Source: Romanomermis culicivorax
Lineage: Eukaryota; Nematoda; Enoplea; Mermithida; Mermithidae
NCBI GenBank assembly: GCA_963922205.1
Contig: CAWUHX010000146.1
Coordinates: forward strand, 186,001 to 250,000
Reading direction: 5' to 3'
DNA length: 64,000 nt
The first letter of the stretch is position 1. Each line of letters opens with the position of its first letter. Of this stretch, positions 904 through 63,285 are shown in pieces. The notes under the pieces are model-generated. The model was not told where the DNA came from, did not search any database, and worked only from the letters and a program-made list of their open reading frames with translations. A program made the position numbers and the translations under genes.

Positions 904-949
904 TTTGACCTGATTTTCAAATATTCAATGATTTTGGTTCGAATTGTAC

Positions 950-21235: not shown

Positions 21236-21239
21236 CAAA

Positions 21240-21640
21240 GTAAAATCACTTTTTCCGGTGGGTTTTTAGTAAAATTGTAATTTCAAGCAATGTTTTGATC
21301 AAATGAGTTTCTAGCGATTTTTCAGTAATATCGCAATTTTTTTGTAAAGTTATGATTCCCATCTGTGAAGTCACGATTTCTGGTGATTTTTTAGTAAAAT
21401 CAGGTTTTCTGGTGATTGTTTAGCAAAATCAAGATTTTTTTACATTGTTCGGTCAAATGGAAATTTTTTAGTGAAATCACGATTTTTAATAGAAATTCAC
21501 GATTTCCAGCAAAATCACCATTTTTTAGTGAAATGCTGATTTTTTGGCAGAATCACAACTCTTCACCTAAACGCCATTTTTCATTCAAATTGCGATTTGT
21601 AGTGAAAAGCGAATTGTAGTAAAATTATGATTTCTTGCAA
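21240..21640. repeat. Degenerate short tandem array, inverted relative to 1420-1790
   Basis: Loose units of TTTTTTAGTAAAATCACGATTTC type every ~30 bp. Directly abuts the right end of the 18760-21235 palindrome, as the 1420-1790 array abuts the family-P fragment. Confidence 0.6.
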
Positions 21641-22195
21641 TTTTTTACATATTCATGGATTTTACCCAGAAATTGTTTTTTTCTGTTCCCACACTGTCGC
21701 AGTATGCCCTGTGGATTTGACATGATTGAAAACTCCTTTTTCCTGAAAATTTCAAAAATCACAGATTTTATATGAAAATTAATTCTTTCATGAGAAATCC
21801 CCAAAAAACTTTTTTTCACATATTCAGCAGTATGCCCATTAGTTTTGACACGATCGAAAACACTTTTTTTCAAAAAATTTCAAAAATCGCTGACTTTACA
21901 CAAAAATTACTTTTTTTGTGAAAAAATCCCCAGACAGATTTTTTTCACATTGTGGGAGTATGCCCATTAGATTTGACACAGTCAATACCCATTTTCCCAA
22001 AAAATTGCAAAAATTGTTGATTTTACCCAAGAATATTCTTTTTCATGAAAAATCCTCAAAAAAATTTTTTCACACTGTTGGAGAATGCGGATTAAATTTA
22101 ACATGGTCGAAAATTCCTTTTTCCAAAAAATTGCAGAGATCCTCGACTTTTACCCAAAAATTACTTTCTTCATGAACAATCCCCAAAAAAATGAG
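21640..22195. repeat. ~124-bp tandem repeat, about 4.5 copies
   Basis: ATGCCCATTAGATTTGACAC-type landmarks occur at about 21713, 21832, 21960 and 22084 (spacings 119, 128, 124). Each unit also holds GAAAA(T/A)CCCCAAAAAA, a TTTTTTCACA block and AAAAATT(T/G)CAAAAATC. Satellite-like; open frames through it (for example on minus 21625-21873) are periodic artefacts. Confidence 0.8.
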
Positions 22196-35600: not shown

Positions 35601-36205
35601 TGTGCAGATTAACTTTCTGCATTTGGAAAATCATTGTATAGAAATGATAATTCGAATATTTACCAGCTGAGGAATTTAAATTTGTGGTGGCTTTGATCCT
35701 AACTACATTTTCCTTTTTTGGAAAAATCAATTAATTAACTGAAAAATAGAGTTTTCATTTGGGGAATAAATGTCGAAAAGATCAATTTCAAGTGTTTTAG
35801 AATATCAAACTATGGAAAAATTAAAGTGTGTGCTATGTGCTGAATAGTCTATTCTCCAAAACCCTGAAAAAGTCATCCACATAGCCATGTTGATGATCTT
35901 CAACACACGTCTATACTGGATATGCATTAATGAGCATCAGCGTACCTAGATGACAGCCAGCGAGTCATATGCTCATTTGCATGAGGAGCTGACCAGCATA
36001 CGCTGGCGCCCATGCACATTGATGCATGTTAATGCACGTCAAGTATAGAAAGGGCTTTACTGCATGCAGCTCTATATTTTTGATGTCTTCTTTTTGCTGG
36101 CATAGCAACATATGAAACTTTAGTCTGTTTTCCTTGAAATGCTTCTAAATAATGAAAGTAGAAAGCAAGCAGTATTTCAGATTTTCTCGATTTGCTGATA
36201 AATAA
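32691..36205. other. Non-coding region without recognised genes
   Basis: AT-rich, no credible protein in any frame. Within it, 35460-35590 carries a fragment of palindromic family P (CTCAGAAATCGTGTCTTAA end). GCACATTGATGC/GTCAATGTGCG words cluster at 34465-34560 and 36010-36050, perhaps ends of a small element. The block 36118-36205 recurs at 25970-26055 and abuts the Polinton remnant. Confidence 0.5.
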
Positions 36206-36209
36206 TATA

Positions 36210-37293
36210 TCATATGGGACCTTATTATCTGTACCAATCCCTACACCTTCGAATAATTGTACAAAAGTATGCAAATATTTGTCTTCTTTACAATTTAACA
36301 TGTAAGGAGTAGTTGGTAAAGTTGTAATACTGCTAGTTAATTTTATCTGGTTTAATTCAAAATGTTTAAAATTAAAGGGGCTCTGTTGATAATGACCCCT
36401 AGCAGCAGCACCATCAATAAGTGCCACAATGAGTCGATGAGGTAGAGGTCCTGTGATTTCAGAGTTTGGAGGTGTCGAGCAATGACTAGCTGTTATATAT
36501 AGACTAGTGACATGACATTAAGTAATAGGATATTTTGCAGCTGTATTTTATAACATAGATTCAATAGCTAAATTAATATTATCTGCAACTTCAACTTTTC
36601 TAATAATTAATGATATGTTCTTAACTTCGATTTCATATGCCTTGTCATCAGTAGATATAAATTTTTGCAAACAAAAATTATCTCTATGTCAGTATTAATA
36701 AATTTTCAAAGTATGCTGATTTATTAAAAAGTGTTCTTGCATGAATAGATCAGTATGTATAGGAGCATTTCACTCAATGACTGTGCTGTTTTTGAACATT
36801 CACACTCTTTCCAAAGCACCCCTGTTTTTCTTTATATCAAGAACATCAAAATTCTCGAAAGTATAACAAGCAGCTGTAACATGCATTGATTTGGCATTAG
36901 GACCATAGTTCAATTCCATCTCCAAATAAGCTCTGTAAGCCTATCTATCTCTGCTGAAATTTTGAATAAATTTCAATCCGTTTAAAAAATGTTTTACCAA
37001 TCAGATTGATTGGTGCTACAACATTTCCAGTATGGTTGTTGTTGGCAACCGAGTTTAAATTGCAAACACCCCCATTAGCCTTTGTAATTCAAATAGTAAA
37101 ATATATAAAAAATTTTTGATAAATCTTGCATATGTGAATCAGGTGAAACAATAAACTCGTATGATCCTTCCCAAGTACAAAGATTCTGGAGCTGAATTTC
37201 CAACCAAAAACTTCTACAAATAGCTACCTGTGTTGGAGGTACAGTAAATAAATCTAATTCAGTTTTACTACTGAGACAATGCAGCATCAACAA
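36210..37293 (-). pseudogene. Polinton (Maverick) major capsid protein, broken
   Basis: Minus translation has the marks of a Polinton/adintovirus double-jelly-roll major capsid. Near the start is LDLFTVPPTQVAI then YEFIVSPDSHMQDLSKIFY; next VVAPINLIGKTFFKRIEIY; a Y-x-AYLEMELNYGPNAKS segment; IHTDLFMQEHF; ISLIIRKVEVA; and late PFNFKHFELNQIKL. These follow the family order, but at least four stops and frameshifts separate them, and the C-terminal end is lost near 36210 where another repeat begins. It would form the icosahedral shell of a Polinton virion. Confidence 0.85.
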
Positions 37294-37826: not shown

Positions 37827-38720
37827 TTATAAGAATGAAGCACTACATTGCTGCAAATGTAGTTTAACTATAACGTTCCCAAACTGGAATGGTATAAATT
37901 CATTCATACTGCTTTTTATATTAATTTCAAGAACAGTAATTCCTTTGAATGGGAATATAATGAGGTGTTTCATGTAATTGGCTTACTATAGCTTTGTATA
38001 TTCCCTGCATATTCACTATACCTAAAAGGGGTGCTAAAGTATTTCTAACAATTTGATCCTCAATGATATTACAGTAAACATAAAAGATCTGTAATCCATT
38101 TAAATTTGGTGGTTGAACAACCAACATACACAAATGCTTATTCCCTTGATCAGCAAGAAAAACAGACTGAGATGCTGGTACATGAGCAATATAATTTTGC
38201 GGTTTGTCTCCAATTGTATGAAGATTAATGTAGACACTTGTATTTACAAAATCATCAGGAGATGCAGCAGTATTGGTAGCAGAAAACCCATTGCTTATAT
38301 TAATTTTACACAGACTTTTACCACTTTTTATTTTTAAATTAACCAATCATGTAAAAATGCATATATCTATTCCTGCAATAGCTGCTCCAATTTTGGTATT
38401 CAATTCATCAATTAAATCAGCCATATTAAAATTTTTTTTCAGAAACTATCAGTTTTATTTCTTTAACTGGTTCGAGCCTGTTTCCAATACAGTCTGTAAA
38501 TAGTATTATGACCTTGTCCCCATTCCAGTTGGAAATTATAGCCCAGCATATATTATTTTGCTTAATCCTACTTCCCAATTACCATCTAGTTTTAAATGAC
38601 ACAGTAAATGAGCTGAAAAACCTGGGGGTGTGTTTCCATATTCGCTATTACTAGGTAAATAGATATGAAATTGGTCATCAAAGGTTGTCTTTATTTTTTC
38701 TAGTGTTAGTTCTTGCTATT
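37827..38720 (-). pseudogene. Polinton penton-like minor capsid protein, broken
   Basis: Minus pieces in family order: FHIYLPSNSEYGNTPPGFFS (N-terminal strand region), LDGNWEVGLSKIIYA in another frame, a 139-codon open frame (38346-37927) with IFYVYCNIIEDQIV and LHETPHYIPIQRN, and then, after a frameshift, GITVLEINI and FGNVIVKLH just before the stop at 37827. These match the penton-like protein of Polintons/adintoviruses (a single-jelly-roll vertex protein). At least three frame changes. Its left neighbour genes (small basic protein, major capsid) follow in the typical order. Confidence 0.8.
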
Positions 38721-38829: not shown

Positions 38830-39533
38830 TGTCAGAGGGTCAATTTTTCTGATCTTTGGTCCTCTATTATCATCTATTTTATTTCTAACGTTCTTTGTTG
38901 CTAAAGTAAGTTCACTTCTCATTAGTTAAACAAATATTTTGAAAGGGTTTGTGCTGTTCTATTTTTGGTATCAAAAATAATAAATTGATGAAGATGTTTT
39001 CCATAATGTCCTAGTTATGGATTGGTGTCCTTTCACCTATTTTATTCATTCCATCATTTTTTAGTGATTTTTTCAGGTACACCATTTTTCTCTTTGGTCA
39101 TCAGTGAAGGTTTGGTCACTTATTATTGTGTTATATGGTGCACTTCGATGATGATGGTTTTCATTTCTCAACATTCACTCTTTATCTGGGAATAGTATCC
39201 CAGTTGACTTTCTCTAATGTCCATCGGTCTGTGTCCCTTTTGGTATAGTTCTGCTACTGACATTTTGGTAGAGTGTTCAGGAGTCACTAGGCCTTGTGGC
39301 CGGTGTTGGTTACTCCACCATAACAACCTTTTTTCCCCATTGTGAATTTTGGCATTCTAACCTGTATTTTGTTTTGTTCAATAATAATCACCATCATTCT
39401 ACATTGGTCTACAGGTAGTCACTGCTTCTTATCTCCTTCTCACCCAGTTAGCATCAGGGTAAGGACTGAGTTAGGAATCTACCACAAACTGAAGGAGGGT
39501 TGTCCAGGGTATACAAGGCAACCCATTACAACA
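38830..39533 (+). repeat. 5' LTR of LTR-A
   Basis: 704 bp, starts TGTCAGAG and ends ACAACA. The first part aligns to 63728-64000. Compared with the 3' copy it has ~120 extra bases around 39020-39145, so one copy has a deletion. It interrupts the Polinton remnant on its left. Confidence 0.85.
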
Positions 39534-39580
39534 TTGGTGACTGTACAACATTGGTGACTGTACAACATTGGTGATTGGTG
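39526..39580 (+). repeat. Triplicated LTR-end/primer-binding-site unit of LTR-A
   Basis: The 17-bp unit ACAACATTGGTGACTGT occurs at 39529 and 39546, and with changes again at 39563 (GGTGATTGG). TGGTGACTGT just inside the LTR end is the primer-binding site and is identical in element B (51353). The repeats look like slippage at the initiation site of minus-strand DNA synthesis. Confidence 0.8.
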
Positions 39581-39709
39581 CGGCTACACAGGCAAAGATT
39601 GATGAGAAATTTGCAAAAGCCAAAGTTAGGATGATGAAAACAACCATTAAGGACTTCAAAATCGAAATTGTTGACATTGGAACTGAATGAAAAAGACTTT
39701 AAAAAATGA

Positions 39710-41157
39710 ATGGCCAACATGGACGAAACAGTCAGCGAAGTTGCCAGGAAATTTGTAAATTCAGTTGAGGACACTGATCAGGCAGCAGACTTGGATGCAG
39801 GCAATCAGATGAATAAGATTGCGCAAATGTCTTCTGATTCTTCCTCTTTTGATAAAATTTATTCTCAAATAGAGACGAATTATTCAGTATCCTAGAATTC
39901 ATGAGTTCATCAACTATAGCCTAAATAGATGCCAAAATGGACCTCAAATTGAGAGTGCCAAAAGAAATAGAGAGAATGAAGAAAGGGAATATTCAGGATG
40001 TAGCCACTCTGGCCATTCTAGAATCCATTCATCAGAGGGTAGAAAAATCAACGAATGTGGTGAATGCAGAGCCAGCCAAGGCTACACTTTGGGAACAAGA
40101 TAGACTAGATCAAATGATGCATGAACGAGCAGAACAGATGTGCTGGAGGAGTAGTTTCATGAATTGGAACAGCAGAAGGCAAGGAAGGTAATGGAAAAAG
40201 TGGAGAAACAAATGTGAGAGCTATTGAAGAAAACCAAAAAGAAAACTGAGGAAAAGATAACAAATCAGGTGGATACAGAGATACTTCCATCTGAATCAGT
40301 CAAAGACCCTTCAGATAGAAGGTTGAGAGGAAACTCAATTGGTTCAAGAATCATGTGGCCCAGGCACAAAATGCCCATTAAAGAAATTTGAATGAAGAGC
40401 TACCTTCAACGTCATGGCATAACTCAAGAGAGATCCTGCAAATATTATGAAATATGCCACAAAATCAACTGGAATATTTCTGATATCAAGAAGATCCAGG
40501 AAAGCAAATACAAATTATCCTAAGTCGAATGAAGAACAAAGAAATATCCAAAAAGATGGAAGCTGCAGAAATACTCAACTTTTCTGCACGTTTGGGAGGC
40601 ACATTCAAGAATGAAGACACAGAAGACCTAAAAATTGAAGTACTCTGACCCTGCTGCGATTTTGAGACATCAACTTATATGGATAAAAATGGAAGATAGG
40701 AAGAAGGAAAGGCCAGTGTTATAAGAATGATAGCCCCTAAAATGGACACTCCTGCACTCAGAAAGGAGCTACATGATCTCAAGAAACAAAAAGGGGAGAA
40801 TACCAAAGATTTTTTGCAGCAAATAAAACTTACGTACATTTATTTAATTATGAAAAACCAGAAAATGAAAGAAATCGAATTGTCATCAAAATGTATTTTC
40901 ACAAAGCTCCCATCTACAACCAAATTCGAATGGAAGGAAGGCTGCATGAATTCAAAAATATTGCCTCTTTGGCAGAATTCATATATAAATTGAAGGCTGA
41001 TACAACAACCTGGGAGGAATTTAGCCAGGATCAAGAGGATGATGAAGATGATCAATTGAATCAAGTCTATGAAAATAGAATAATAAATAATCAACAAATC
41101 CATCAACAAGATCAAAATTATACTCAACAACAGAGTATGCATCCCCTGATTATGTGA
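39710..41157 (+). pseudogene. gag: LTR-A gag (capsid part)
   Basis: Frames 39710-39895, 39937-40191, 40727-40993 and 40891-41157 in sequence, with shifts and stops. The N-terminal part is acidic, then has a charged helical stretch (LILESIHQRVEKS-like). The capsid part, MDTPALRKELHDLKKQKGEN, then TKDFLQQIKLTYIYL and RLHEFKNIASLAEFIYKL, parallels element B's gag ([41 protein letters not shown]). It ends in Gln/Asn-rich sequence before the CHHC knuckle. Confidence 0.7.
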
Positions 41158-41756
41158 CCACCACCACCTGCATTTCAAAACACCTTGACCTATCAGGATA
41201 TTATCAAAATTGTCAATGAAGCCATAAGGAATCAGAACTCTCTAGCTCCTAACCATTGAGGGTTTAACAATAATAATAATAATGCTCAATATAATAACTT
41301 ACCTGATTGAGTTTTGGAAATACATATCGTTACCCATATTGCACTTATCATAAATCGAATAGTCATTCATCTGAGAATTGTTTCATTTTGCATCCTGAAT
41401 TAATCCAACCAGTGGATCGGTGAACATTTTGGAATCGTAACAATAATGTGTACAACAATAATCAAAACTTTGATAATTGGGGCGGATTTGTAAATCGAGG
41501 ACGTGCCAGATTCAGTAATTTTGGACAACAGCAACAATATAATAATAATAACCAACCAAATTCAAATATTCGTTATTATTACTGTCAAAACAATCAACAG
41601 CTGCCATCAAATAATCAACCACCATGACGTAACCCTCCTGCAAATCATCTCTCAAATAATTCCATAAATTTAATTAATTTGCAGGAAGCTAAAAAGAAAG
41701 AACAATCAGAAATTGTAGCCCTCGATTGAGTCCTAATAAAAAAATATGACCTAAAG
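41158..41756 (+). pseudogene. LTR-A gag nucleocapsid region with CHHC knuckle
   Basis: Asn/Gln-rich low-complexity sequence (AAT microsatellite at 41267-41282) surrounds CTYHKSNSHSSENC at 41340-41381. The spacing is C-x2-H-x4-H-x4-C, i.e. the second Cys of a standard knuckle is His. Element B has the same variant ([14 protein letters not shown]). Several stops occur on both sides. Confidence 0.75.
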
Positions 41757-42180
41757 TTGGCAAACATAATCAATTCAACATCTGAAGCAAAGCCAAGATT
41801 AGGTAGAAACAAGGAACAATTATTTCAAGAAAATTTTCCAAAGTGCCAATGGTTATTGATTCATGTTATAATCCATGGTGAAGAATTTGAAGCATTAATC
41901 GATGCAGGAGCACAATCTAGCTTTATGAGGACAGACACAGCCTTGAGATTATTGAACACTCCCAAACCAAACTTCCCTATTTTGAATTCTGTAATTACAG
42001 CCCTAGGCAAGTGAGTAACAACTTATGGGCCTACATTTATATATGTCAGAACCAGTTTTGGAAATTTCTCGGCAAGATTCTTGCTTTTAGATAACTTGAA
42101 TGAAGGTATTATCTTGGGTCTAGATTTTCTTACCCATCCTAATATCCAGGCAGCGATCAATTTTGGAAAAGGCCAGATAT
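41757..42180 (+). pseudogene. LTR-A aspartic protease
   Basis: WLLIHVIIHGEEFEALIDAG then AQSSFM: the catalytic Asp codon is 41901-41903 in the family signature (L-I-D-x-G-A; here Ala instead of Thr/Ser after Asp, which is unusual and probably inactivating). After a TGA at about 42012 the frame continues with NEGIILGLDFLTHPNIQAAI, the second conserved protease element (ILGxDFL). Cleaves the gag-pol polyprotein. Confidence 0.8.
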
Positions 42181-42215
42181 GACTAGCAAACATCCAAAAC
42201 GACATTGTTAGTGGG

Positions 42216-42686
42216 GTGCTATTTGATGATGCACAAATACCACTGAGGTTACCCACACCAAACAATCTGATGATACTGGATGAAGTGCAGATTAAGGAAA
42301 AAATTGAAGATGAAGAAGTGCCCGATTTGGAAAGTGATGATGACAAAGATTGCGTAATGAGAATCACCAGAATGGGTGGAGAAACTTTCATATGGACAAA
42401 AGCAAGAACTTGTGTACTGCCTAATACTACTACTTTTGTTCAAGCTGTGGTTTGGCCACAGAAAGATTGGGCAAAAGGACCTGTAGTAGTGGAGGAATCG
42501 GGAAAGAATATGCCCTTTGATATAGATGCCTTGATTGTTGATACAAGAAACAATGATTTTAGAGTTATGTTAATAAATGATACAAACAGAGGAATACCAT
42601 TGCCTAACAATGAATTGATAGCCAAATCAAAGAGGAAAACCATCAGACCGGACTTTGATTGCAGAACAAACCACAATTACAACTGA
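42216..42686 (+). pseudogene. LTR-A protease-RT linker
   Basis: 156 codons, acidic (EDEEVPDLESDDDKD), then a segment with GPVVVEESGKNMPF and NDTNRGIPLPNNELIA, the beta-rich tether common between protease and RT in Ty3/gypsy pol. No catalytic motif. Uninterrupted. Confidence 0.6.
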
Positions 42687-42769
42687 CTGCAGAGTGAACC
42701 GGAATTCATAAAAATTGTTATGCAACTGGTACGGAGTCCAGCATCAATTGAGAGGGTCAACAAAAACTT

Positions 42770-43670
42770 ATGAATGTTTTACTCAAATATAGACATTCTT
42801 TTAGCATGAAAATGAACTCATTGACAATTACACATGAAGCTGAACATAAAATTGACACTCCAAGTGCACTACCTGTACAAAAACATTACTGGAGAGCACT
42901 GATCATGCAATGCCATATGATATGTGAACATGTAAAAGATATGATAGACAAGGGAGTCATTCAACCTTATAGAAGCCCTTGGCCTGCACCATTGTTTCTA
43001 GTGGGTAAAAAAGATGGCATCTGGAGGCTGGTAGTCCATTACTAAGGGATAAATCAAGTGACAAAGGACAACAAATTCCTGATACCGAGAATAGATGATT
43101 ATTTGGACACATTCAAAGGTGCAAGATACTTTTCGACCCTTGACTTGAAATCGGGCTATTAGCAAGTGCCTATGCTTCCTGAATCGAAAGAAAAAATGGC
43201 TTTTATTTGCCAGGATGGCCTATTTCAATTCAAGGTGATGCCATTGATGTTAAAAAATGCCCAGCTGAATTTCAATGTCTTATGGAACAAATTTTATACC
43301 CATATGTTTGGAAAATATGTTTGATATAAATTTAATCATATTCTCAAAAACTATTAATGAACATCTCAAAAATTTGGAAACCATCTTCCGATGTTTAGCA
43401 AGCACGAACCTTATGTTCAAACCTGACAAACTTTCTTTTATGCCTGCCAATGTGAAATTTCTTGGCGGCATATTAGACAAAAACGGAATGTCAGTCCACC
43501 CCCAAATAATCGAAGTTGTGAAAAATTTTGAAGCACCAAAATTAATCAAGCAATTGCAGAAATTCTTGGGATTGGTACAATGGTTGAAACGGTTCATATG
43601 TAACTTAGCCTTTATAGCCCAACCATTATTCAAGGCCTTAGTGAAGAAAAACAGAAAAGAAAAATTTTAA
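42770..43670 (+). pseudogene. pol: LTR-A reverse transcriptase
   Basis: In order: [34 protein letters not shown], a stop where Arg is expected, GINQVTKDNKFLIPRIDDYL, STLDLKSGY, stop, QVPMLPESKEKMAF. The catalytic YxDD box is destroyed: the sequence before LIIFSK reads FDIN in frame (about 43320-43335). The thumb and connection follow (CLASTNLMFKPDKLSFM, FLGLVQWLKRFI). Clear Ty3/gypsy RT, inactive. Confidence 0.9.
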
Positions 43671-43673
43671 CTT

Positions 43674-44270
43674 TTGCAGGAACAATTGACAGCATTCGAA
43701 AATGTAAAAAATATGTTAATAGCTGCACTTTTTCTTAGGTATCTGGTGCTTGATGGATCTGCGAGATTCATCATCCAAATTGATGCCTTGGAAACAGCCA
43801 TAGGTGCTATTTCGTATCAAGAAATGGAAAATGATCAATGGACTATGGCATATTTAAGTAGATTATTGAATGTCGACAAAACTAGGTACTCTGCTATGGA
43901 AAGGGAATGTTTCATGGTAAAGTATGGCTTTAAACAGTATAGACATTACATCATGGGGTTTAGAGTCACAGTGCAAACAGACCATAAGCCTCTAATATGG
44001 TTATCAGCCGAAAAACAACAGAACCAAGGATTATTGAAGTGGGCGCTATATTTAGGCCAATTTAATTATATGATTGAATATGTGGCTGGAAGAGAAAATG
44101 CCTTTGGGGACTTCTTGTCAAGATCTGAAGAAAAGGAAAAGCTGAAAAGGAAACAAGAGGAATATAGGAAAGAAATTAATGATAATGAAGAGTTAAAAAT
44201 GGGAATGGCAGTGACTCGAGCAAAGATGAAACAAATGTTGGAGCTGGAAAATGCAAGAAACTTTTATTGA
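43674..44270 (+). pseudogene. pol: LTR-A RNase H
   Basis: Uninterrupted 198-codon frame after a single TAA that separates it from RT. Key residues are seen in FIIQIDALETAIGA (Asp), YSAMERECFMV (Glu) and VTVQTDHKPLIWL (Asp), then GRENAFGDFLSR ending the domain. A charged Lys/Glu tail follows. It degrades the RNA strand during reverse transcription. Domain itself looks intact. Confidence 0.9.
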
Positions 44271-44367
44271 CCTGCCACCCCCAACACAACAAGAAATTAA
44301 TCAAATGCCTGGAGAAGCAAAAGATGCAGAATTGTTATCCCTCAAATTAATAAAAAAACTACAATGA

Positions 44368-45434
44368 TTGGATTTAAAATTGACAGATATTTTCAAAAAT
44401 ATTGGTAGAAATAGCTCAAAAAAGTACTTCAATAGTTTTCACTTGGAAAACGAAGTACTATATCCTGAGAATATCCACAGAAAGAATCAACTGGTGGTCC
44501 CTACAAGGCTTAGATATCTGTTATTGCATCAATATTACAGCAACACCCTGATGGGTCATTGGGGGATTGATCAGATAATTGCTAAAATCGGAAATAGATT
44601 TTAGTGGCCAAACATGGAAGATGACATAATTAAATGGGTCAAATCATGTGTAGTATGCCAATTATGTCACCCAGTAATGAACCAAATACAGCCTTTGAAT
44701 CTACACATGAGAAATAGTAGCCATGGATGTAGTTAGTATTTCACCATTAAGGGAAAAATGACTGTACGTGATTGTTTTCATGGATTACTTCACAAAGTGG
44801 GTCGAAGCCAAATGCATACTGGACCAAAAGGTTGACACAATAGTGAGAGCATTTATGGAAAAAGTCGTATACACACAGGGGATGCCGAAACACCAATTGA
44901 GTGATCAAGGGTCTGCTTATATGTCTCAATTAATGACAGATGTTTGTGATCTACGTAAATTCAAGAAAATTCGTACAACACCATATCTTCCACAATGTAA
45001 TGGTATGATGGAGCGATTTAATCATACACTTATCGAACAAATTTGGAGAGTAGCAATAACTGACCCCAACAATTGGCCACACTATCTTGAACAAATCTTA
45101 TTTGCCTACCGAGTTATGCCCCATAGAACAATAAAAAATTCACTGCATCCTTCTATATGGCCAGGAGGCAATACTCCAATTGGATCAAGAAATTGCCTGG
45201 CCAATAATTACTCAAAATAATTATGATGCCTATAAATACATGCAAACAGAGCATTTCCATAGCATGTATAAAACTATCAACAAAAATCACAAAAAAGCAG
45301 CAGCAGAGAGAAAATTACAGTATGATAAAAAGCCTTGCAAGAAGACTTTCCAGGTGGGGGAAAACTTGTTCCCTACCAGGAAGGCATTATCAAAGGAAAG
45401 GCCGTTACAACCAACAATGGACCCTATGAGTTGA
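44368..45434 (+). pseudogene. pol: LTR-A integrase
   Basis: Zinc-binding domain: YLLLHQYYSNTLMGHWG, stop in place of the usual aromatic before WPNMEDDIIKW, and CVVCQLC (HHCC). Core: AMDVVSISP (first Asp), a TGA, then VIVFMDYFTKWVEAKC, HQLSDQGSAY (second Asp, residue 46 of the 44768 frame) and GMMERFNHTLIEQ (Glu, residue 82): exactly 35 residues between, as in D-D-35-E. The C-terminal part (KTFQVGENLFPTRKAL) shifts frame at about 45180-45230. Inserts the cDNA. Confidence 0.9.
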
Positions 45435-46258
45435 TAGATACAGAAAACATTGATAAAAATGTAACAAAAATACATCACACCAGGAAACCTGATTTGTGTG
45501 TACAAATTGTATCAATGAATCGCATAATGCCCTTTTTATGTGAATGCCAGAATTTTACTGTATGTAATAATTCACTTTTATCATTTTATTTTGCATTTTA
45601 TTCGAATTTGTTTTATTTATATCTTATGTGTGAAAAAGTTGCGAAATTCCCCTTTTCAGTATCAATTTTATTCAAAAGTCTATTTTTGGGTATTTTATGA
45701 CATTTTTAAGGCACTGATCAAAAGGCAAGCACCAAAAATTTTAATTTATGGGCCGAATAATATTTTTTCACATGCTCAGTGTGAAAAATTTGAATATTTT
45801 TATAAGTCCCAATCCACTCCCAACAATTTTTTTCGACATAGTAGTCTTACCATGGAGAAATTTTTCAGATTCAAGTATGGATATTTTAATTTTTTGATTT
45901 TAATTATTAACCGGACAATTCAAGAATTTTGGATTGCGATGACGTATGGAACCCTCAAGTACTGTCGAAACTGACATAAATTTCGGCCAAGCCCAAGAAT
46001 GCCAAGATAACACTAATTTCGTGCTAAGCAGCAAGTTTGAGGAAGAAGAATTATATTTTGAAGAGAAAATAGATGAAATGTGACTCTAAATTGACAGGCC
46101 AGCAATTCATATGCTGAGGATTTTGGGTGTTTGTGAGCCCGATCAACTCCTTATGTCCAAATTTATTCTTGAGCATTTGAGTCGTTTAGTTTAGAAATCT
46201 TCAAGAAATCGATAGTTCAAAAATTAAATGATAATTTTAAAATTATAATGTTCGGCGT
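45435..46258 (+). other. LTR-A spacer between integrase and ORF3
   Basis: Two overlapping open frames (45335-45700, 45540-45974) are rich in Phe/Tyr/Ile/Leu, but the sequence is AT-rich and I see no domain. The equivalent interval of element B (56604-57123) is likewise aromatic-rich and poorly conserved. Could be untranslated sequence needed for ORF3 expression. Confidence 0.35.
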
Positions 46259-46660
46259 ATGGTTTGGTCAACGAACATATGTAACTATTTTTCCTCTCTA
46301 TCCATTGTACAACACACGGTCATTGAGTCGGGAATAAAGTCGTTTATTAGAAGTATTAATGATTCAAAATTGCGAGGAAGAATCGTCATAGCCCTAAATA
46401 GAAAAAGCAGAATAAAACCAAGGGTGTCAGGCGCTAAACCATCCGATGTGTTGAGACTCCTAACTATTTTAACAATGATGGGTAAAACCTTCATCGTTGA
46501 TTTAAAATTTTGGGAGAAGGACAATTTTCCAAGAATTTATAGGACCATTTTTTGCCAAGATAATATTATCATCAGTTTCCACATTAAGGAGGACATAACC
46601 CTCTTGTTGACAGGTATCTTGAAGCCGAAAATAACAGGCCAGGAAAAGATGCAATGACAT
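46259..46660 (+). pseudogene. LTR-A ORF3: DEDDy 3'-5' exonuclease-like domain, first half
   Basis: 132-codon frame. Residues ~40-125 follow the RNase D/WRN exonuclease layout: a strand with RIVIALNRKS (motif I, where the family has D-x-E; here Asn-x-Lys at codons 46397 and 46403), a second strand (GKTFIVDL), a helix, and NIIISFHIKEDITLLL (motif II, Asp at residue 112). It corresponds to element B at 57850-58110, where motif I is FDTE. The motif I acids are lost here by G-to-A type changes. Frame shifts to the next segment at about 46650. Confidence 0.6.
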
Positions 46661-47633
46661 GGATTACATACTTTCCTGTTTCATTTATGACCTAGAAATA
46701 GTCATAAATGAGATGAAGGATGAACCAAAAGCATGAATGGCTGCAATTAGCCCTGAAGCAGTGAATCTTAAAGCACTAATTACAGAATTGGCATTTTTGT
46801 GGGTTGACGCCTATAAAATTTCTTGGGGCTAATTGAACTCCTTGGAGTTTAGACAATTAATGGACACAGACAAACTATCCATGGAAGTTTTACGATATGC
46901 GATGTTGGATGCGAAGGGGTCATTATTGTGCTTCCTAGCCCTTTTGTGATATGGATTTGCTCAAAACGTACAAAATTGTTTCCAACTATTTCCCCATGAT
47001 ACCATAGAACCAGAAATGATTGCCAATTTGGCAAAAAGATTTCCGGAAACATTCGAAAACAAACAAAAAGAAGAGGATTGGAAAGAGGCATATGAAACAC
47101 AAGAAATATGCAATAACACCTCTGCATTGTACTTTATGATGCGAGGAGAGGCGACAGCCACCCATAAATTGGCAGAGGAACAAGCCTCTGGAGACTTCTT
47201 CTGCCCACCAAACATCTCAAATTGTGATGCTGAAATAAAACCGCTACCAAGAGGTTGGTACATGTGGATTGATAAAAAAGTGAAAACACCCAAAAAGAAA
47301 AAGGTTTGCAACAAAGATGAAGAACCTGAGAACTTTCTTGACTTGTACCATTTTTTGGTGGTGAAATCATTCAGAAAAACCATTGAAATGAAAGACATCA
47401 AAGACGGAAAAGTACGGCAAGGGATAGCACCGCTGTCGAATAATATTCGGGAACAAAACATCGCCCCACGAGACCACTGTAGAAGTAAAATTAGTCTCGA
47501 AATTGTACCAGTTTTGCAAGAGCTATCCCAGAAACGCATCAATCCTGTCATTTACTTCCTGTGGCCACATTCAGCACAGGAATGGAAGGTATGGATACCA
47601 AGTTTCACATCGGGAAAATGGGCAGACCTTTAG
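46650..47633 (+). pseudogene. LTR-A ORF3: exonuclease second half and conserved C-terminal extension
   Basis: One frame with four stops (about 46719, 46831, 46947 and the end at 47633). CFIYDLEIV (expected Asp of motif III region, family FDT), then TDKLSMEVLRYAMLDAKGS, the DEDDy motif Y-x3-D (Tyr 46896, Asp 46908). Beyond this, FLALL, YGF and LFPHDTIEPEMIANL parallel element B's FLAFSHYGF and LFPHDSLDATEINHL. Then an RGW block and KTPKKKKVCNKDE, opposite B's VPKKKKKKQKDE. The extension has no domain I recognise. Confidence 0.65.
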
Positions 47634-47666
47634 AAAACTAATAAGGAGTGATTCACATTTGCGAAA

Positions 47667-48509
47667 ATGATAGGCCAAGACATGGAGGACAACACAGTGA
47701 TGCAAGAAATGGCCAAATTATTGGAAAGATGCCCAGCTTCACCTACCCAGAAATTGATACAAAATGTATTCTGTGTGTTAATAATTATGTTTGTACCAAG
47801 AATGCCGATAGAGCAAGTATATGAAGAACAAATGAGTTTTTGCGACAATACCGTATACTTAATTCATTGCCACTTCTTCAACATATTTCTTTTCCTGAAT
47901 ATTCATGTTGCAAACCAAAGCTTGATATATTGGAATTCGGCAGCTCCCATATTCGAGGCTAAAGATATTAATCAACCCTCAACCTCGAGAACTTTTAAGT
48001 CAGTCTCTAAATGGCATGAAACTGATCTAATTCCCGGAGCAGAAGTTGTAATCCCGACTTGCCAGGGTCCTAATGAAATAGTTTTTTTGGATCAGACAGT
48101 TCATAAAATCAGTAATAACGAAACTTTATCTATTTTAGACCAACCAATAGACCAAGAACAGCCTCAAGAAATAATTATTGCCAATCCCCCTATTGCCATC
48201 ACACCTGCGATTGGGAGTGAAGATGTTATATGTGTAGAAAAGTTGATAGAAGTAATTGAGACTGTGGAAAAAAGATCGACTGCATTAGACATATTGATGG
48301 ATGCCATCAAAATAATGAAAGAAAAAATTGAAACATTGGAGAAAGATCATTATGGGAAGGAAGCCGTAGAGCTAGTGAAGAAAATTCAAACAAACAATGA
48401 AGAAGATGAGTCTACGAGTGAAGAACAGGATGTGGAAGTGGTATTGGAAGCTGCAAGTGAAGAGGATGATTATCTGGAGGCAAACACCTTTCCCGTACCT
48501 GCCATTTAA
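47667..48509 (+). CDS. LTR-A ORF3 tail plus acidic coiled-coil-like region
   Basis: 280 uninterrupted codons. The first ~85 (MAKLLERCPASPTQKLIQN, CVLIIMFVPRMPIEQ, CHFFNIFLFLNI) resemble the end of element B's ORF3 (LERKPFF..., [29 protein letters not shown]), so this is probably the continuation of ORF3 after a short break at 47633-47667. The rest is acidic and helical: KLIEVIETVEKRSTALDILM, IKIMKEKIETLEKDH, ending EEDDYLEANTFPVPAI, with likely coiled coil. Function unknown. It ends 58 bp before the next frame. Confidence 0.5.
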   Translation: MIGQDMEDNTVMQEMAKLLERCPASPTQKLIQNVFCVLIIMFVPRMPIEQVYEEQMSFCDNTVYLIHCHFFNIFLFLNIHVANQSLIYWNSAAPIFEAKDINQPSTSRTFKSVSKWHETDLIPGAEVVIPTCQGPNEIVFLDQTVHKISNNETLSILDQPIDQEQPQEIIIANPPIAITPAIGSEDVICVEKLIEVIETVEKRSTALDILMDAIKIMKEKIETLEKDHYGKEAVELVKKIQTNNEEDESTSEEQDVEVVLEAASEEDDYLEANTFPVPAI

Positions 48510-48566
48510 GCTAAGGCTAGTGGGCAGGGTGTAGAGGAAATAACAAACTCGGAGTGATTTTCCAAA

Positions 48567-49900: not shown

Positions 49901-50814
49901 TATTTACCGCCAAATTACCCAAGATTGCCTATGGTAGGTATTGATGCATTAAATCGCCCAATTATTATTATCACCAATTTCTGATACCGCTGTCAATGAA
50001 CATGCTGCTGCCGAATTTTATTCCCCCTGTTCGAATGGGGCAAACAGAGGAAAGAATGGGAAACACGCAGCAGCAAGGTGGGTTCCCTATGCAGCAAAGA
50101 CTGCCATCAGCAGGCAATCCAGACTATGTGTAGCTGTTGAAAAGAGACCTGGCAATTGGCCAACCAGGCAGGGACCAAAGCGGCCACAGAGATAAGTAAT
50201 GTGTTGTGAAACCATGGACCTTGCTCTTTGTGAGGTCATGGAAGAATGTATGTCATAATCAATTTTCAAATTCTGTAAAGTTAATTCCTATTTCTGTTGC
50301 AAAACAAAACTTTTGATTGTGCTATATATCGCCTTCCTTTTGATCGTGCCTTGCAATTGCCTTAAAATTTTTTTTTGACTTGTAATATTTTCGAGAAATC
50401 TCGTATAAAAATTGTTTTTTTTTCGGCATTGAAAAGGGTGAATTTCACGAAATTTCTATTTTTATTTTTGCAATATCTTCCTCGCCATTTCAAAAAATCA
50501 ATATAATTTTCAAATTACAAAATTTTCAACTCAAATTCCTTATATAGCACGAGCCATATTGAAATATTTGTTTACCTTTTGATAATGCAGACCTACTTTA
50601 GCACAAATACCATATTTCTTGACTCAAAATCTAGACAGTCAAAGGCATAGAAGATTCGGCTTTCGGGCATCCTTTTTCCCTGAGCTAGGACTTACCAAAG
50701 GCATTACAGGGTCAGTGTTTGGCCAAGGGGCCAGTGGAGAAGACTGGTGGGATTGATGTGAGTGGGCCTACCACCACCCCAATAACACCCCCTCCAGAGA
50801 GGATGGAGTCACGT
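49901..50814 (+). other. LTR-A 3' untranslated part before the nested insertion
   Basis: No coding signal beyond a short Ala/Arg-rich broken frame to about 50200; then AT-rich sequence. Ends at the 5' LTR of element B. Confidence 0.4.
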
Positions 50815-51351
50815 TGTAGTGTGTTTCCGCTGATTTCGTCATTTTTGTCAATCCGTGCATGAGGCCCGCAAGTACCAAGTGGAGCAAGCAACGCGGACCA
50901 TCAACAGCCATCTTACTGTAGCGCACGTTGGTATGCGTGCGCTGACTCTCTCTTAGTATATATAATATATTGTTTTCATTTTCGTGCGCTCAACACTTGT
51001 TTTATATTATACTCATTGCCTCCCCCCAGGCCTCATCACTTTATGTTTTTCTCCCTAGTGCGTGGGAGTGATTTATGTGCGCTCTCGCCCAGCCTCTTTG
51101 TAAGTAAGTGTTGTTATTGCATAAAGGTAAATTTGTAGAAAGTCTCTCTTTTTGTGTGATTATTTTCAGTTGGGAGACAAATTAAGGAAGTACCTCTCCT
51201 TAATTTGTAGGGTAATCAGTGTCGGGTTTAAGTACTATTAGTTAAGTTAATTGGGTAAGTGTGGGTGTGGGAAATACGTACATTAAGGAGGAACCCTGGG
51301 ATCACACTCCTGCGTAACTCATCGATCCCCGACTCATTTACAAATACAACA
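50815..51351 (+). repeat. 5' LTR of LTR-B
   Basis: TGTAGTGTG...AAATACAACA. About 40 substitutions separate it from the 3' copy, many of them C/T or G/A, and no gaps are needed. Confidence 0.95.
50953..50972 (+). promoter_or_regulatory. TATA-like promoter element in LTR-B
   Basis: TTAGTATATATAATATATTG, about 140 bp into the LTR and conserved without change in the 3' LTR (at about 62888), while flanking bases have diverged. A plausible core promoter for the genomic RNA. Confidence 0.55.
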
Positions 51352-51442: not shown

Positions 51443-54103
<2,661 letters not shown>

Positions 54104-54363
54104 CATCTGCGGCCCCGATCGTGAGCCCAGGGATCATTTGTTGGAATGCAACCCGCCATGCTTTCTGAGATCCATGCCACATCTGTTTGTTGGTTTGCCA
54201 GATTGACAATCTCACGCCATCATCAAAGACTTTCGTCCGCAAATACGCCTCTACCAGAGCTTTCCAAATCCCAATTAAACTTGGTGCCGTCAAGGCACAC
54301 GCGCTCATAGACACGGGTGCCCAATGCTCAGTACTGTCTTCAGGACTAGTCAAAGGCGCTTCT
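54104..54363 (+). pseudogene. LTR-B aspartic protease (N-terminal half)
   Basis: In the frame of the RNase H segment: FQIPIKLGAVKAHALIDTGA then QCSVLSSGL, with catalytic Asp at 54310-54312 in a perfect L-I-D-T-G-A signature. The second half (ILGxDFL) is missing: a TAA follows at 54364-54366 and then sequence from the RT thumb. The deletion therefore starts inside protease. Confidence 0.8.
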
Positions 54364-54365
54364 TA

Positions 54366-54409
54366 ATGGGACATCTTCTTAACGCCGATGGGACATCTTC
54401 TTAACGCCA
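54366..54409 (+). repeat. 22-bp tandem duplication at the RT deletion junction
   Basis: Two copies, 54366-54387 and 54388-54409, of ATGGGACATCTTCTTAACGC followed by CG or CA (one mismatch). The second copy encodes the native GHLLNANG thumb motif. It marks the junction where roughly 0.9-1.3 kb of protease/RT has been lost. Confidence 0.85.
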
Positions 54410-54560
54410 ATGGAATCGCTGCCGATCCAGACAAAGTCAAGGCTATCGACGAGTATGAATTCCCGACTACCAAAAAAGGTATGCAAAGTTTTTTAGGTCT
54501 AGTCCAATGGTGCAAATGATTTATCCCGAAATTGGCGACTTTGTCCAGTCCTTTGTATAA
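54388..54560 (+). pseudogene. LTR-B reverse transcriptase remnant (thumb only)
   Basis: GHLLNANGIAADPDKVKAID, then FPTTKKGMQSFLGLVQWCK, a TGA at 54517-54519 and [16 protein letters not shown]: the connection/thumb of Ty3/gypsy RT. Fingers and palm, including YxDD, are absent. Confidence 0.85.
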
Positions 54561-55512
54561 ACTACTACAAAAAGAGGCTCAATATATCTTCACTGAAGAA
54601 CACTATACGGCATTCGAAGGCATCAAGAGAGCTCTTACATCATCGCCTTTCCTCCACTACCTGGTGTACGATGGTAAAGCCCAATTTGTTATTCAAACCG
54701 ACGCCAGCACAACCGCCATTGAAGCAATTCTGTACCAGCAAAATGGCAACCACCAATGGGTCATCGCCTACAACAGCCACATACTGACCGATGCCAAAAC
54801 CCACTACAGCACAACTGAACGCGAGTGCCTCGCCATTGTCTACGGCTTTTGGATGTACTGCCACTACGTATACAGCCAAAAGGTAATCGTTCCCACTGAT
54901 CACAAGCCCCTCGAATGGCTCAAAGATGAAAAACACAGAAACTTGCGCCTCCAACACTTCGCTATCAATCTTCAAGATTATGATTACAAAGTCCAATACA
55001 TCAAAGGCAAAGACAATGCCTGCACGGATTTCTTGTCCAGGAAAGATGACCACGAGAAACCACCAGTTCGGAACACCAAAGACTTAACCGCTGAAATTTT
55101 TCGAAAAAATTTTCGCCCTGCTGGTGCATTATCAGAGGCCGACTTAACAGTACCCAATATACTCCCAGCAGCAGTTTTGCCGCCTATGGAAATTGACGTG
55201 AACTTTAACATCATCACCCGTGCAATGACCAAAAAGATCATCAGTCAACCCACACTCCCCAGTCACATGCCATTGGCTGCCGATTACGCCCCACCTCCAG
55301 TCGAAGCCATAAATATCGCCTCCCAGGATGAAGTCTCACGAGCACAGGTCGCTGATCCAGCTATCACCACACTCAACCCCTCTCTACAAATCCCCAACAT
55401 CGCAAAGCACCCGCCGATTCTCTTCACAGAAGATGGACTTTTGTATCCACAAATCAAAGATATCAAGCAATTGGTCATTCCCACATCCATGGTCGATCAA
55501 ACGCTTCATTAA
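54532..55512 (+). pseudogene. pol: LTR-B RNase H and start of integrase
   Basis: Uninterrupted frame of 326 codons. RNase [18 protein letters not shown] (Asp), [15 protein letters not shown] (Glu), [13 protein letters not shown] (Asp), and [12 protein letters not shown] at its end; all catalytic acids are present. A linker of ~100 residues leads to the integrase N-terminus ([20 protein letters not shown]). A TAA at 55510-55512 breaks it where the zinc-binding histidines begin (LH, stop, FHG). Confidence 0.88.
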
Positions 55513-56600
55513 TTCCACGGCGCAAAAATTTTGAACCACCAAGGATCCACCCCCAAACTGGCAGCCATCACAGCTCATTTTTGGTGGCCCCACATGGAAG
55601 AAAAAGTCCGCGATTGGATCAAGTCCTGCAAAATTTGTCAATTGACGTCCCCGCCCACATTGCCGCCTCTGCCGCTGTTGCGGATCCAGCCCAAGCACCC
55701 TTTCCAGATTGTCGCCACCGATATTGTCAACATATCACCGGTAGGTGAGAAACGCCCATACGTTATTGTTTCTCAGGATTATTTTACGAAATGGGTCTCC
55801 ACACATCCCATCCCCGATCAAAAGGCTTCAACCATCGTCGAATGCTTCATGAACAACGTCCTCCTCACGCATGGTAGCCTGCTTGTCCTTCTTTCCGATC
55901 AAGGTGGATGTTTCACGTCAAAGATCATGCAGGATATTTGTGACCTACTCATAATATGGAAAGTCAAAACAACAATGTATCATCCCCAGTGCAACGGAAT
56001 GGTCGAGAGCTTCAATCAAACATTAATTGCTCAACTAAAGAAGTGCACCGCTGACGACCCGGACAATGGGAGCCCTACTTGCCGTATACTATATTCACCT
56101 ACAACGCCACGCCGCATATGGCCATGCGTCACTCACCCTTCAGCTTATCAGGAGGCTACGAACCACGCATAACTTTCGACTACGATTGCACTCACCGACT
56201 CACACTACCGCTCAATTACGAGGCGTACCAGCATATCCTCACCCAAGTGCAACTAAAGATGCACGAGAAAATCAAAGCTAACCTTGATGTAGCCACCGTG
56301 GTCAGTAAAGAATACTTCGATCAAAAAGCCCGAACACGTGATTTCACCATCAAGGACCTTGTTCTCTTGACCAAAACACGAAAGGCGAACAAAATCCAAC
56401 CTGATTTCATTGGACCCTTTATTATCACGGTCACGTCCCGGGAAGCCCAAAACGTCCTCACCATTGATTCACTCGATACGCCCCGCCAGCCACAAACCGT
56501 TTCCATGACGCGACTGAAACCATTCATACCGGGCCCTGCCAAAGACATCTTTGACCTCGAAACCGGCGGACCACGTTTGCCCCACACTTCACACTGCCAA
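55513..56600 (+). pseudogene. pol: LTR-B integrase
   Basis: Frame 55531-56172: zinc domain with [25 protein letters not shown] and CKICQL; core with TDIVNISP (Asp 64), [10 protein letters not shown] (Asp 123) and [11 protein letters not shown] (Glu 159): 35 residues between the last two, as in D-D-35-E. A frameshift near 56070-56090 moves to 56079-56603 ([48 protein letters not shown]), the C-terminal SH3-like part. With the TAA at 55510 and the shift it is inactive as written, but the DDE triad is intact. Confidence 0.9.
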
Positions 56601-57123: not shown

Positions 57124-57855
57124 ATGAAAACACCATCAACTTCTTCAGCCTCCACAGCCGACAAACCCCCACCATACTGGGAATCCATAAACGTCAACAA
57201 ACATTACGTACAATGGGCCAAACAGCAACCACTTCAGAACAATCTTAGCTTCTGCTGGGACATAACATTTTATTTTCAATGCTTTCTTTGCTTCACTTTT
57301 GCATGCTCTTTTCTGCTTGGGATCCCATTAGAACCCTTCTCACTCTGTAGCCCCCACCAGAGCCCATGGTCAGCCCCCATGATCCAATCATCGTCAAGTT
57401 GTGGCCACCACCAGGCCCCAACTGGCCGCTGCTTCGACCCCCGCATATGACAACTCTGGTCATCTCACTATCATAGCCGGATCCAGTTGACAAAATGCGT
57501 TGGTCGAAGTGACATTGTCGCCCAAGCAACCATTTTCCCAGGGCATGCTCACCTCTCCGCACAGCATACAACGCCATACCCCTCTTGGTTTTGTTCTAAA
57601 GTCAACCATTTGAATCCATTTCGCTCCCTCGACCTGGTACCCACTCAATTTTATGTTGAATATCATGCCCGCTCTTCTTTAGAAAACAATGTCAAAAGGC
57701 TGATTCGGGCCACCGATTTGGAGTGTTGGTACGTCTCCTTGTTCGCAAGACCTCCGAACATGCTGCCCCCGCTGATCTTTCTTTCACCTAGAAATTTGGG
57801 GATGGCCTTGGCCACCCAGCCCATGCCAAATTTCCGTGGCTACACTCTGGTTGGC
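57124..57855 (+). pseudogene. LTR-B ORF3, N-terminal part
   Basis: ATG at 57124 (MKTPSTSSASTADKPPPYWE), a frame that stops at 57448-57450 and resumes in the same frame from 57487. It includes a hydrophobic Cys/Phe-rich run (FYFQCFLCFTFACSFLLGI, about residues 48-66), which could be a membrane segment, then Pro/Ser-rich sequence and a segment leading into the exonuclease (FYVEYHARSSLENNVKRLIR, LIFLSPRNLGMALAT). No counterpart in A was recognised with confidence. The start is plausible, not proven. Confidence 0.45.
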
Positions 57856-58405
57856 TTTGACACCGAGTCAATTATGGCCGTGGATATGAAAAATTTCCAG
57901 TTTGCTGTGCCCATGCCAGCTGATTCCATGACGTCCAGCTATCCGCGCTATGTCCAACTCGCGTTCCCCAATGGCACAATGTTCGTTTTTGAAACCTTCA
58001 CCGCCACCCCAGAAGACTGAACCTGGTTATTCTCCCTGGTCAACCGCAAGCACACTTCGATGGAGCCGACAACTGGGTGGGAATTACGCTCTTCTAGGCA
58101 CCCAGTTTTGAACGGATCCTCAAAAGAAGAATAAGGATCCCCTCGTCAAGGCGATCCATTTCGACACGTACCGCATTATGCGAAACATCCATATCTCCCC
58201 ACCGCTGTATGAGCTGGCTTGGCAGATAGGGTTTTTCCTCGAAAAGCGTACCTTGAAAGCTATTGTCTCCGCCATGTGGGACCAGGATGTTTCGAAACTC
58301 ATGCTGAGGTTCCCAGCCGCCTTGCGATTCTTCAACAACCGGGCGACATAGTTCCTACAATCGGATGTCCTCGCCTATGCCGCCCTTGACGCCTATTACC
58401 CGCTT
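57840..58405 (+). pseudogene. LTR-B ORF3: DEDDy 3'-5' exonuclease-like domain
   Basis: Motif I: YTLVGFDTESIMAVD, with D-x-E at 57859-57867. Next strand: YVQLAFPNGTMFVFETF, as in RNase D/WRN proteins (LLQLA...). After a shift at about 58018, NLVILPGQPQAHFDG and DNWVGITLF (motif II area; TAG at 58095-58097 and another shift near 58110 hide the Asp). Then, in a third frame, AIHFDTYRIMRNI (motif III Asp area), LYELAWQIGFFLEKRTLKAI, and after a TAG, SDVLAYAALDAYYPLL with Tyr 58376 and Asp 58388 (Y-x3-D). This domain removes nucleotides from 3' ends of DNA or RNA. Two shifts and two stops: inactive here. Confidence 0.7.
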
Positions 58406-59695
58406 TTATTGTTTTTGGCTTTCAGCCATTACGGCTTCATCCCCCAAGTATACAATGCTTCGGCATTGTTTCCCCATGACTCGTTGGATGCCACCGAAAT
58501 CAACCACCTCACTGAGGCGTTAATAGCTGCTTTTCACAACCTCCCATTAACGGATGTTCTACCCACCAACTCCCCCGACAAAATTTATCCCACTATCTCG
58601 CAAATCGCCCTCACAGCAATTATGCGAGACGAGGTTCTTTGGGAACGGTGCCCAATGCTTTTCGAAACATCAAAATATTGATGCATACGACACATCCCAA
58701 GCTTCTCACCGCCCCGAAAGTGCCCAAAAAGAAAAAGAAGAAGCAAAAAGACGAATGGAACAAGTCGTTGGAGGTATCAGACGACAAAGACCCTGCTATC
58801 CAACCTCGATCGTTGGTGGATGACCCGAAACGCCCTCAAGCAGCCATCACTTCGGCCATGAAGAGCGGGCTCACTGACCGGCTCAACGAATCGCTCAACT
58901 TCCTGGTCTCGCCTATGTACAAACTAGCCATCCGCGATTGCATCCAATTTGATCCTGATCCGGCTTTGCCACCGATTTGTCATCCGCGATCGAACCTACC
59001 AGGGTACCCATTATCATTATCTCCCTTCCTCCATCCTTAGTCTGTTACAGGTGGATGGCAACTGGTTTCGACGCCTAACAACTTGCATGCCATTGGCCGC
59101 ACTTTTGGCTTCACCTTGTTCCGCTGCAGAATACGCCTACGTCAATGATTCGCTAATTTGCCATGCTCAAAATTTCGATCCGGCAACACGTACCACCTTT
59201 TACAACTGTATGTGGTACCCCGCCAATGGCAACCCTCGAACACGCCTCATGGATTGGATGAATCGGATACTGGAGAGAAAGCCGTTTTTTGCAAGTGATC
59301 CCGGAACCTACGTCTGCAACCGGTTCGCTCTGCACCTGATTATCTTTGACGAGGATTTTCAAATGGAAACCACCATCAAACAAATTGATATGGACGAATC
59401 GGACTATACAACCAGCCCCTATAGCCGTTTTCATTTCTATTCGCATTTGCTCAACATCATCCATTTCCAAAATCGATTTTCATTCCCTGCGCGGGTGTAC
59501 ACATACCCTTTCCCGACTATGGCCTTGGTGCACACGCTCACTGCCAAGGAACTACTCGACCGCCCAACTTCAGCTATAGACCTAGAGCCCGCTGACAAAG
59601 AACTTTGGGCCCCCAATTTTCGATTTGAATATACATGCCAATTTTCACGCCGAGATTTTCGATTTGAATATAGCCAAGCTGCGGCCTTCAACTGA
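58406..59695 (+). pseudogene. LTR-B ORF3: conserved C-terminal extension
   Basis: Frames 58409-58681, 58639-59040 and 58949-59695 (two shifts). FLAFSHYGFIPQVYN and LFPHDSLDATEINHL continue from the exonuclease; then [87 protein letters not shown]. Element A has counterparts in the same order (46908-47920), so the extension is an old part of ORF3. No domain recognised. Ends at TGA 59693. Confidence 0.55.
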
Positions 59696-62732: not shown

Positions 62733-62748
62733 CAAGGGGGAGGGATGT
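62733..62748 (+). promoter_or_regulatory. Polypurine tract of LTR-B
   Basis: AAGGGGGAGGGATG directly before the 3' LTR start (TGTAGTG), the site where plus-strand DNA synthesis is primed. Confidence 0.85.
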
Positions 62749-63285
62749 TGTAGTGTGTTTCTGCCAATTTCATCATTTTTGTCAATCTGCGCATGAGACC
62801 CACAAGTACCAAGTGGAGCGAGCAACGTGGACCATCAACAGCCGTCTTACTGTAGGGCACGTGGGTACGCATGCGCCGGCTCTCTCTTAGTATATATAAT
62901 ATATTGTTTTCATTTTTGTGCGCTCAACACTAGTTTTATATTATACTTGTTGCCTCCCCGCACGCCTCATCACTTTATGTTTTTCTCCCTAGTGCGTGGG
63001 AGTGATTTATGTGCCCTCTTGCCCAGCCTCATTGTAGGTAAGTGTTGTTATTGCGTAAAGGTAAATTTGTAGAAAGTCTCTCTTTTCGTGTGATTATTTT
63101 CAGTTGGGAGACAAATTAAGGAAGTACGTTTCCTTAATTTGTAGGGTAATCAGTGTCGGGTTGAAGTACTATTAGTTAAGTTTATCGGGTAAGCGTAGGC
63201 GTGGGAAATACGTACATTAAGGACGAACCCTGGGATCCCACTCCTGCCTAACTCATCAATCCCCGACTCATTTACAAATACAACA
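62749..63285 (+). repeat. 3' LTR of LTR-B
   Basis: 537 bp, TGTAGTGTG...AAATACAACA, ungapped match to 50815-51351. Preceded by the polypurine tract. Confidence 0.95.

Follow-up and report, generated by a model that had tools for sequence, protein, structure and literature searches.

Exonuclease reading frames in mobile elements

The DEDDy family comprises RNase H-like exonucleases, which trim 3' ends with the aid of two metal ions, and a 3'-5' exonuclease is an uncommon cargo for a retroelement. Open reading frames (ORFs) of the DEDDy type, designated ORF3, have been described in the long terminal repeat (LTR) retrotransposons Juno and Vesta and in the Terminons of bdelloid rotifers (Rodriguez, Kenefick and Arkhipova 2017, PMC5408684), a finding repeated in PMC6338049, PMC6431247 and PMC5718144. 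Here, a comparable ORF3 is analysed in a decayed Ty3/gypsy element (element B) and in a second, older-looking Ty3/gypsy element (element A, 40800-48510), both located on a stretch of 64,000 nucleotides from the nematode Romanomermis culicivorax (assembly GCA_963922205.1, contig CAWUHX010000146.1, positions 186,001 to 250,000, forward strand). This whole stretch is called the window, and all coordinates refer to it.

In the bdelloid ORF3 proteins the DEDD residues are changed to DEED, a function in 3'-end processing has been suggested, and catalytic activity is, according to the authors, yet to be shown (PMC5408684). The Terminons are giant Athena Penelope-like elements, deficient in endonuclease and located at bdelloid telomeres (PMC6431247, PMC5408684). 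A DEDDy domain is likewise carried by the Dada DNA transposons of the fungus Laccaria and the brown alga Ectocarpus; there it lies within the transposase, retains all four catalytic residues and has been suggested to process the 3' ends exposed in transposition (PMC3706591). The main text of an oomycete paper (PMC5348765), cited in PMC6338049 beside the bdelloid work, mentions neither exonuclease nor DnaQ. Among open-access titles and abstract openings, no such ORF was reported in LTR retrotransposons outside rotifers.

A first-pass annotation of the window had considered an exonuclease unusual for Ty3/gypsy elements and had mentioned such domains in Terminons. The mention of Terminons is borne out by PMC5408684; the domain is an uncommon one for retroelements, but it had already been described in Juno and Vesta. 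Exonuclease-type ORF3s in LTR retrotransposons have thus been known since 2017, and elements A and B, judged by sequence, would add to them.

Comparison of element B with described systems

Compared by published description, elements A and B resemble Juno and Vesta in being LTR-type elements with an ORF3 downstream of the integrase, and thus of pol, that probably encodes an RNase D-like DEDDy-type protein. The differences relate to the knuckle motif and the LTRs, and possibly to the dUTPase. The knuckle is of the form CX2HX4HX4C in both A and B, in contrast to CX2CX4HX4C in all but one gag in PMC5408684; the latter pattern was not found in B 51443-54600 or A 39500-43000, where only CX2HX4HX4C occurs. 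The LTRs of element B are 92% identical (503/547 aligned bases), whereas those of Juno and Vesta differ by very few substitutions (PMC5408684). The interval between protease and reverse transcriptase (RT), where the dUTPase of Juno and Vesta is located, is missing from B, and the only piece of A tested (42183-42683) gave no Pfam match, to a dUTPase or otherwise. The Terminons are retroelements with a DEDDy exonuclease ORF, as B probably is; in contrast to them, B belongs to the Ty3/gypsy group and possesses LTRs and an integrase. As in RNase D/EXD2-type proteins (PF01612), FDTE is followed by YAAxD in element B, and the C-terminal half can be aligned to a profile; the spacer after motif I is, by eye, longer in B than in the DEDDy alignment, and the B pieces are too diverged or decayed for the Pfam model.

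ORF3 of element B

Element B, bounded by two 540 bp LTRs, shows the Ty3/gypsy order, in which the LTRs flank gag, protease, RT, RNase H and integrase. Its integrase is recognized by the Pfam models H2C2 (E=3e-12) and rve (E=8e-10), and ORF3 lies downstream of it, inside the two LTRs, as the first-pass annotation had reported. Two motifs of DEDDy exonucleases are present where that annotation had placed them: motif I, D-x-E, as FDTE (57856-57867, D at 57859), and motif III, Y-x3-D, as YAALD (58376-58390). The single open frame assumed at 57840-58405 does not exist, for the frame of motif I ends at the TGA 58018-58020, the TAG 58349-58351 precedes motif III, and the two motifs lie in different frames. 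Read by eye across these interruptions, the order of segments is RNase D-like: the motif I strand TLVGFDTES, the second strand RYVQLAFPNGTMFVF, HFDT, a K/W helix and YAALDAYYPLL.

The ORF3 gene is broken in this copy and the enzyme cannot be made. Element B is old, dead and mutation-riddled, and stops and frameshifts are numerous in both elements. Where the protease piece of B gives way to the RT remnant (54366-54388), nearly all of the RT has been lost, so that the element could afterwards not move by its own RT. The ends of the B LTRs showed no target-site duplication.

The pair of motifs, defined by the pattern [FILVA]D[TCS]E followed at 300-750 nt by YA[AMSL]xD, occurs once in the window, at ORF3 of B. 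The single motifs occur five and four times on the plus strand and four and one times on the minus strand; estimated from such counts, about 0.14 pairs would be expected by chance on the plus strand. The pair alone is not significant. A pure-chance pair is made unlikely by the homologous segment in element A, and this explanation was set aside, the A segment scoring at z ~10 with 0/300 shuffles reaching it. The match of the C-terminal half to the DEDDy profile also exceeds chance, though more weakly.

A homologous segment in element A

Element A carries, likewise downstream of an integrase, a segment homologous to ORF3 of B, with 43.5% amino acid identity over 62 residues (tblastn, E=4e-11); YA-x-LDA-x3-LL is kept in both elements, with YAMLD as motif III of A. 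Among 32 pairs of A and B pieces only three exceed z=3, and the parts of the ORF3 segment reach z 10.0 and 9.5 (0/300 shuffles each). The two elements are diverged, their identity being 53% for the integrase core, 44% for RNase H, 40% for the end of RT, 35% for the zinc region of the integrase and 25% for a stretch of gag. RT is seen in A in decayed form, and a comparison of 37.0-41.5 kb with 48.3-51.0 kb revealed no LTRs of A.

In this segment A and B differ at 100 nucleotides, of which 33, 18 and 49 fall on first, second and third codon positions, respectively. The ratio of nonsynonymous to synonymous differences per site (pN/pS) is 0.47, compared to 0.35 for the RNase H block and 0.38 for the integrase block; these ratios are rough, because synonymous sites are near saturation. 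The homology, the third-position excess and the pN/pS values together make it most likely that the segment has been kept as protein, alongside pol, since before the split of A and B. The coding-type constraint concerns the motif III segment; in the N-terminal half the two elements share 19% identity, by an unreliable alignment. Downstream of motif III, A contains a PKKKKV run resembling the lysine-rich run of B.

Retroelements can capture host sequence, and ORF3 could accordingly be a fragment of a host exonuclease gene captured by, or nested in, element B alone. Such an origin is highly improbable, because A, an element this far diverged from B, carries its homologue of ORF3 at the equivalent place.

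DEDDy profile comparisons

A DEDDy profile was built from 14 bacterial and phage sequences, namely two of E. coli (rnd and polA) and 12 stretches, 11 of them from plasmids and one from a phage, chosen by hand from four phage and 40 listed plasmid matches. The relatives of E. coli RNase D in genome contigs (best 80 of 202) were mostly Escherichia-like and too alike for use. The profile was aligned to the DNA with frame changes allowed. In five of six settings ORF3 of B ranked first in the whole window. In two settings B scored 59.0 and 72.4, above the maxima of 53.9 and 68.5 among 300 dinucleotide shuffles, and none of the 94 other blocks reached B in either; these two settings were picked after the six-setting scan had been seen, and therefore the shuffle counts are somewhat favourable. 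Element A also exceeded all 300 shuffles, narrowly (46.7 against 46.3 and 53.8 against 53.2), and in each setting a comparison with the five best of the 94 blocks showed at least two scoring as high as A or higher (47.3 in the first; 58.6, 54.7 and 54.5 in the second), so that A is not outstanding among blocks. A peak at 46805 within A, obtained under default settings, is an off-register alignment that does not correspond to motif III. The reversed profile scored 40.2 for B and 26.5 for A. With the motif III columns blanked, B still stood above all 94 blocks (49.9 against 48.2).

A direct comparison of the A+B alignment with the DEDDy alignment by hhalign gave E=3e-4 at a probability of 38%, with the YA-x-LDA stretch placed on YAA-x-DV, that is, on motif III. 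Against 177,635 Protein Data Bank (PDB) sequences, the best match of the A+B profile was Exonuclease 3'-5' domain-containing protein 2 (EXD2; eight entries, among them 6k17). The alignment falls on motif III, with a non-significant E of 0.29. The in-register similarity to DEDDy profiles thus extends over the C-terminal half and is of moderate strength.

Considering that a second element has kept the ORF3 segment and that motif III falls in register when aligned to the profile, we favour the DEDDy reading: A and B would be decayed members of a Ty3/gypsy lineage whose ORF3, situated downstream of the integrase, specified a DEDDy 3'-5' exonuclease of the RNase D type. We estimate its probability at about two in three; a DEDDy fold as such, whether active or inactive, is held with greater confidence.

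A number of observations weigh against this interpretation. With regard to the profile, (i) the lead of B is slim in three settings (43.0 against 41.3), and at the strictest setting B falls under at least six other listed peaks; (ii) column-permuted profiles reach B in 2/300 and A in 6/300 cases; (iii) with motif III blanked, 6/94 blocks reach A; (iv) the two alignments cover little beyond the C-terminal half and do not include FDTE, and the motif I half takes ranks 23, 93 and 41 among 1278 blocks in three settings; (v) a shorter A+B alignment did not find EXD2 in the PDB. Motif I is not recognisable in A, and motif II is ambiguous in B. The exonuclease-like pieces of B had no DEDD match in Pfam scans at E up to 1 and up to 10, and no family at the cut-off of PF01612, whereas two intact DEDDy proteins used as positive controls matched this model at 2e-35 and 5e-54; the Pfam check of separate segments that the first-pass annotation had proposed is therefore negative. 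Two ORF3 pieces matched no exonuclease model in NCBIfam and one unnamed family in PHROGs (E=0.15), and single-sequence scans of the PDB returned unrelated proteins (E 0.57 to 1.5). As these pieces are fragments of a broken gene, ORF3 is not filed as a confirmed PF01612 member. The exonuclease claimed for a Ty3/gypsy element stands as the best reading of the segment kept in A and of motif III in register, with no public family model matched. Four scans of viral contigs yielded no confirmed relative, and the AlphaFold model of the piece 57451-58017 had a mean predicted local distance difference test (pLDDT) score of 34.

These negative scans, the weak motif I half, the motif pairs expected by chance and the modest significance of the DEDDy matches would also suit a conserved retroelement protein of another fold, in which FDTE and YAALDA resemble an exonuclease by chance. 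We consider such a protein unlikely, since the profile signal includes the region ahead of motif III and persists in B when that motif is blanked, and motif III itself is in register in the hhalign and EXD2 alignments and is kept in element A.

The state of motif II bears on catalysis. In the hhalign alignment, the D of HFDT (58163-58165) lies on the motif II aspartate, but across a gap, and A has a D there. By eye, HFDT could also correspond to the FDT segment located after motif II, and HIKED is a further candidate in A. On that reading of HFDT, motif II would fall to the damaged third-frame piece, in which no clear aspartate was seen by eye and no Pfam match was obtained. Metazoan inactive DEDD derivatives that retain RNA binding have been described (PMC5408684), and the main functional rival is an ORF3 of DEDDy fold that was already such a derivative, as reported of Maelstrom and EXD1, aiding packaging or evading small-RNA silencing. 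The ambiguous motif II of B and the unrecognisable motif I of A would be in agreement with it. However, D-x-E and Y-x3-D are retained in B, and the losses of residues are those expected from decay, given the many stops and frameshifts in both elements; inactivity of the ancestral protein is therefore regarded as rather improbable, more so than another fold.

Organization of the elements and other features of the window

The features of both elements are listed in Table 1.

Table 1. Features of elements B and A in the window
Feature	Positions	Strand	Remarks
5' LTR of B	50812..51351	+	540 bp, terminates ..ACAACA
CTGGTGACTG		+	follows the 5' LTR of B; possible primer-binding site
gag-region ORF of B	51443..53398	+	651 aa; weak match to element A (25%, 60 aa, E=0.001)
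CX2HX4HX4C knuckle of B	53573..53614	+	counterpart in element A at 41340
Aspartic protease of B, N-terminal piece (DTGA)	54169..54366	+	truncated; weak Pfam matches, E 0.014-0.04
RT remnant of B (RT end)	54367..54516	+	matches element A; no Pfam match of its own
RNase H region of B	54520..55512	+	PF17917, E=5e-29
Integrase of B, H2C2 and rve core	55513..56172	+	a further frame runs on to 56603
ORF3 piece 1	57451..58020	+	motif I FDTE, then RYVQLA; profile support weak
Third-frame piece between ORF3 pieces 1 and 2	58033..58131	+	motif II could lie here
ORF3 piece 2	58112..58351	+	closes at TAG 58349-58351; candidate motif II D in HFDT
ORF3 piece 3	58352..58681	+	motif III YAALD
Lysine-rich run VPKKKKKKQK	58720..58749	+	possible nuclear localisation signal
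Further piece of B	58928..59695	+	marginal similarity to element A 47652-48509 (z 3.8; 3/300 shuffles reach)
3' LTR of B	62746..63285	+	purine tract GGGGGAGGGA in front
pol of A: RT end, RNase H, integrase	43269..45220	+	decayed
Exonuclease-like segment of A (YAMLDA)	46875..47060	+	downstream of the A integrase; homologous to ORF3 of B

Outside the two elements, a Ty3-like gag ORF (163-924, minus strand, PF03732, E=5e-6) marks a further retroelement where the window begins. In the region 18800-26000, related repeats are numerous, in both direct and inverted orientation and with identities of about 70-85%; one such pair is 23846-24671 and 25931-25100. Two ORFs on the minus strand, 36029-36517 and 37927-38346, may be reminiscent of Polinton/adintovirus structural proteins; in Pfam at E up to 0.1 the former had no match and the latter a weak match to a Crassvirus tail-hub protein (E=0.012).

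Proposed function of ORF3

In living copies, the product of ORF3 would have comprised a DEDDy exonuclease and, after it, a lysine-rich run and one more region. The exonuclease would adopt an RNase H-like fold, in which D-x-E, the motif II aspartate and Y-x3-D hold two metal ions, and would remove nucleotides from 3' ends, the likeliest substrates being the RNA or cDNA ends of the element itself. The lysine-rich run of B and the similar run of A hint at nuclear entry or nucleic-acid binding.

The occurrence of ORF3 in two diverged elements argues for a function kept by the lineage and not for a one-off capture. Both copies are dead, which limits the value of the locus itself. Tentatively, a Ty3/gypsy lineage outside bdelloid rotifers may have kept an RNase D/EXD2-like ORF3 together with pol over a long time, whether its acquisition was independent or shared. 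Intact relatives, if they exist, would offer a test system for the exonuclease trimming of retroelement RNA and cDNA ends. If this reading is true, the pool of retroelement exonucleases would extend beyond rotifers, and a role in the trimming of cDNA or RNA ends would become testable.
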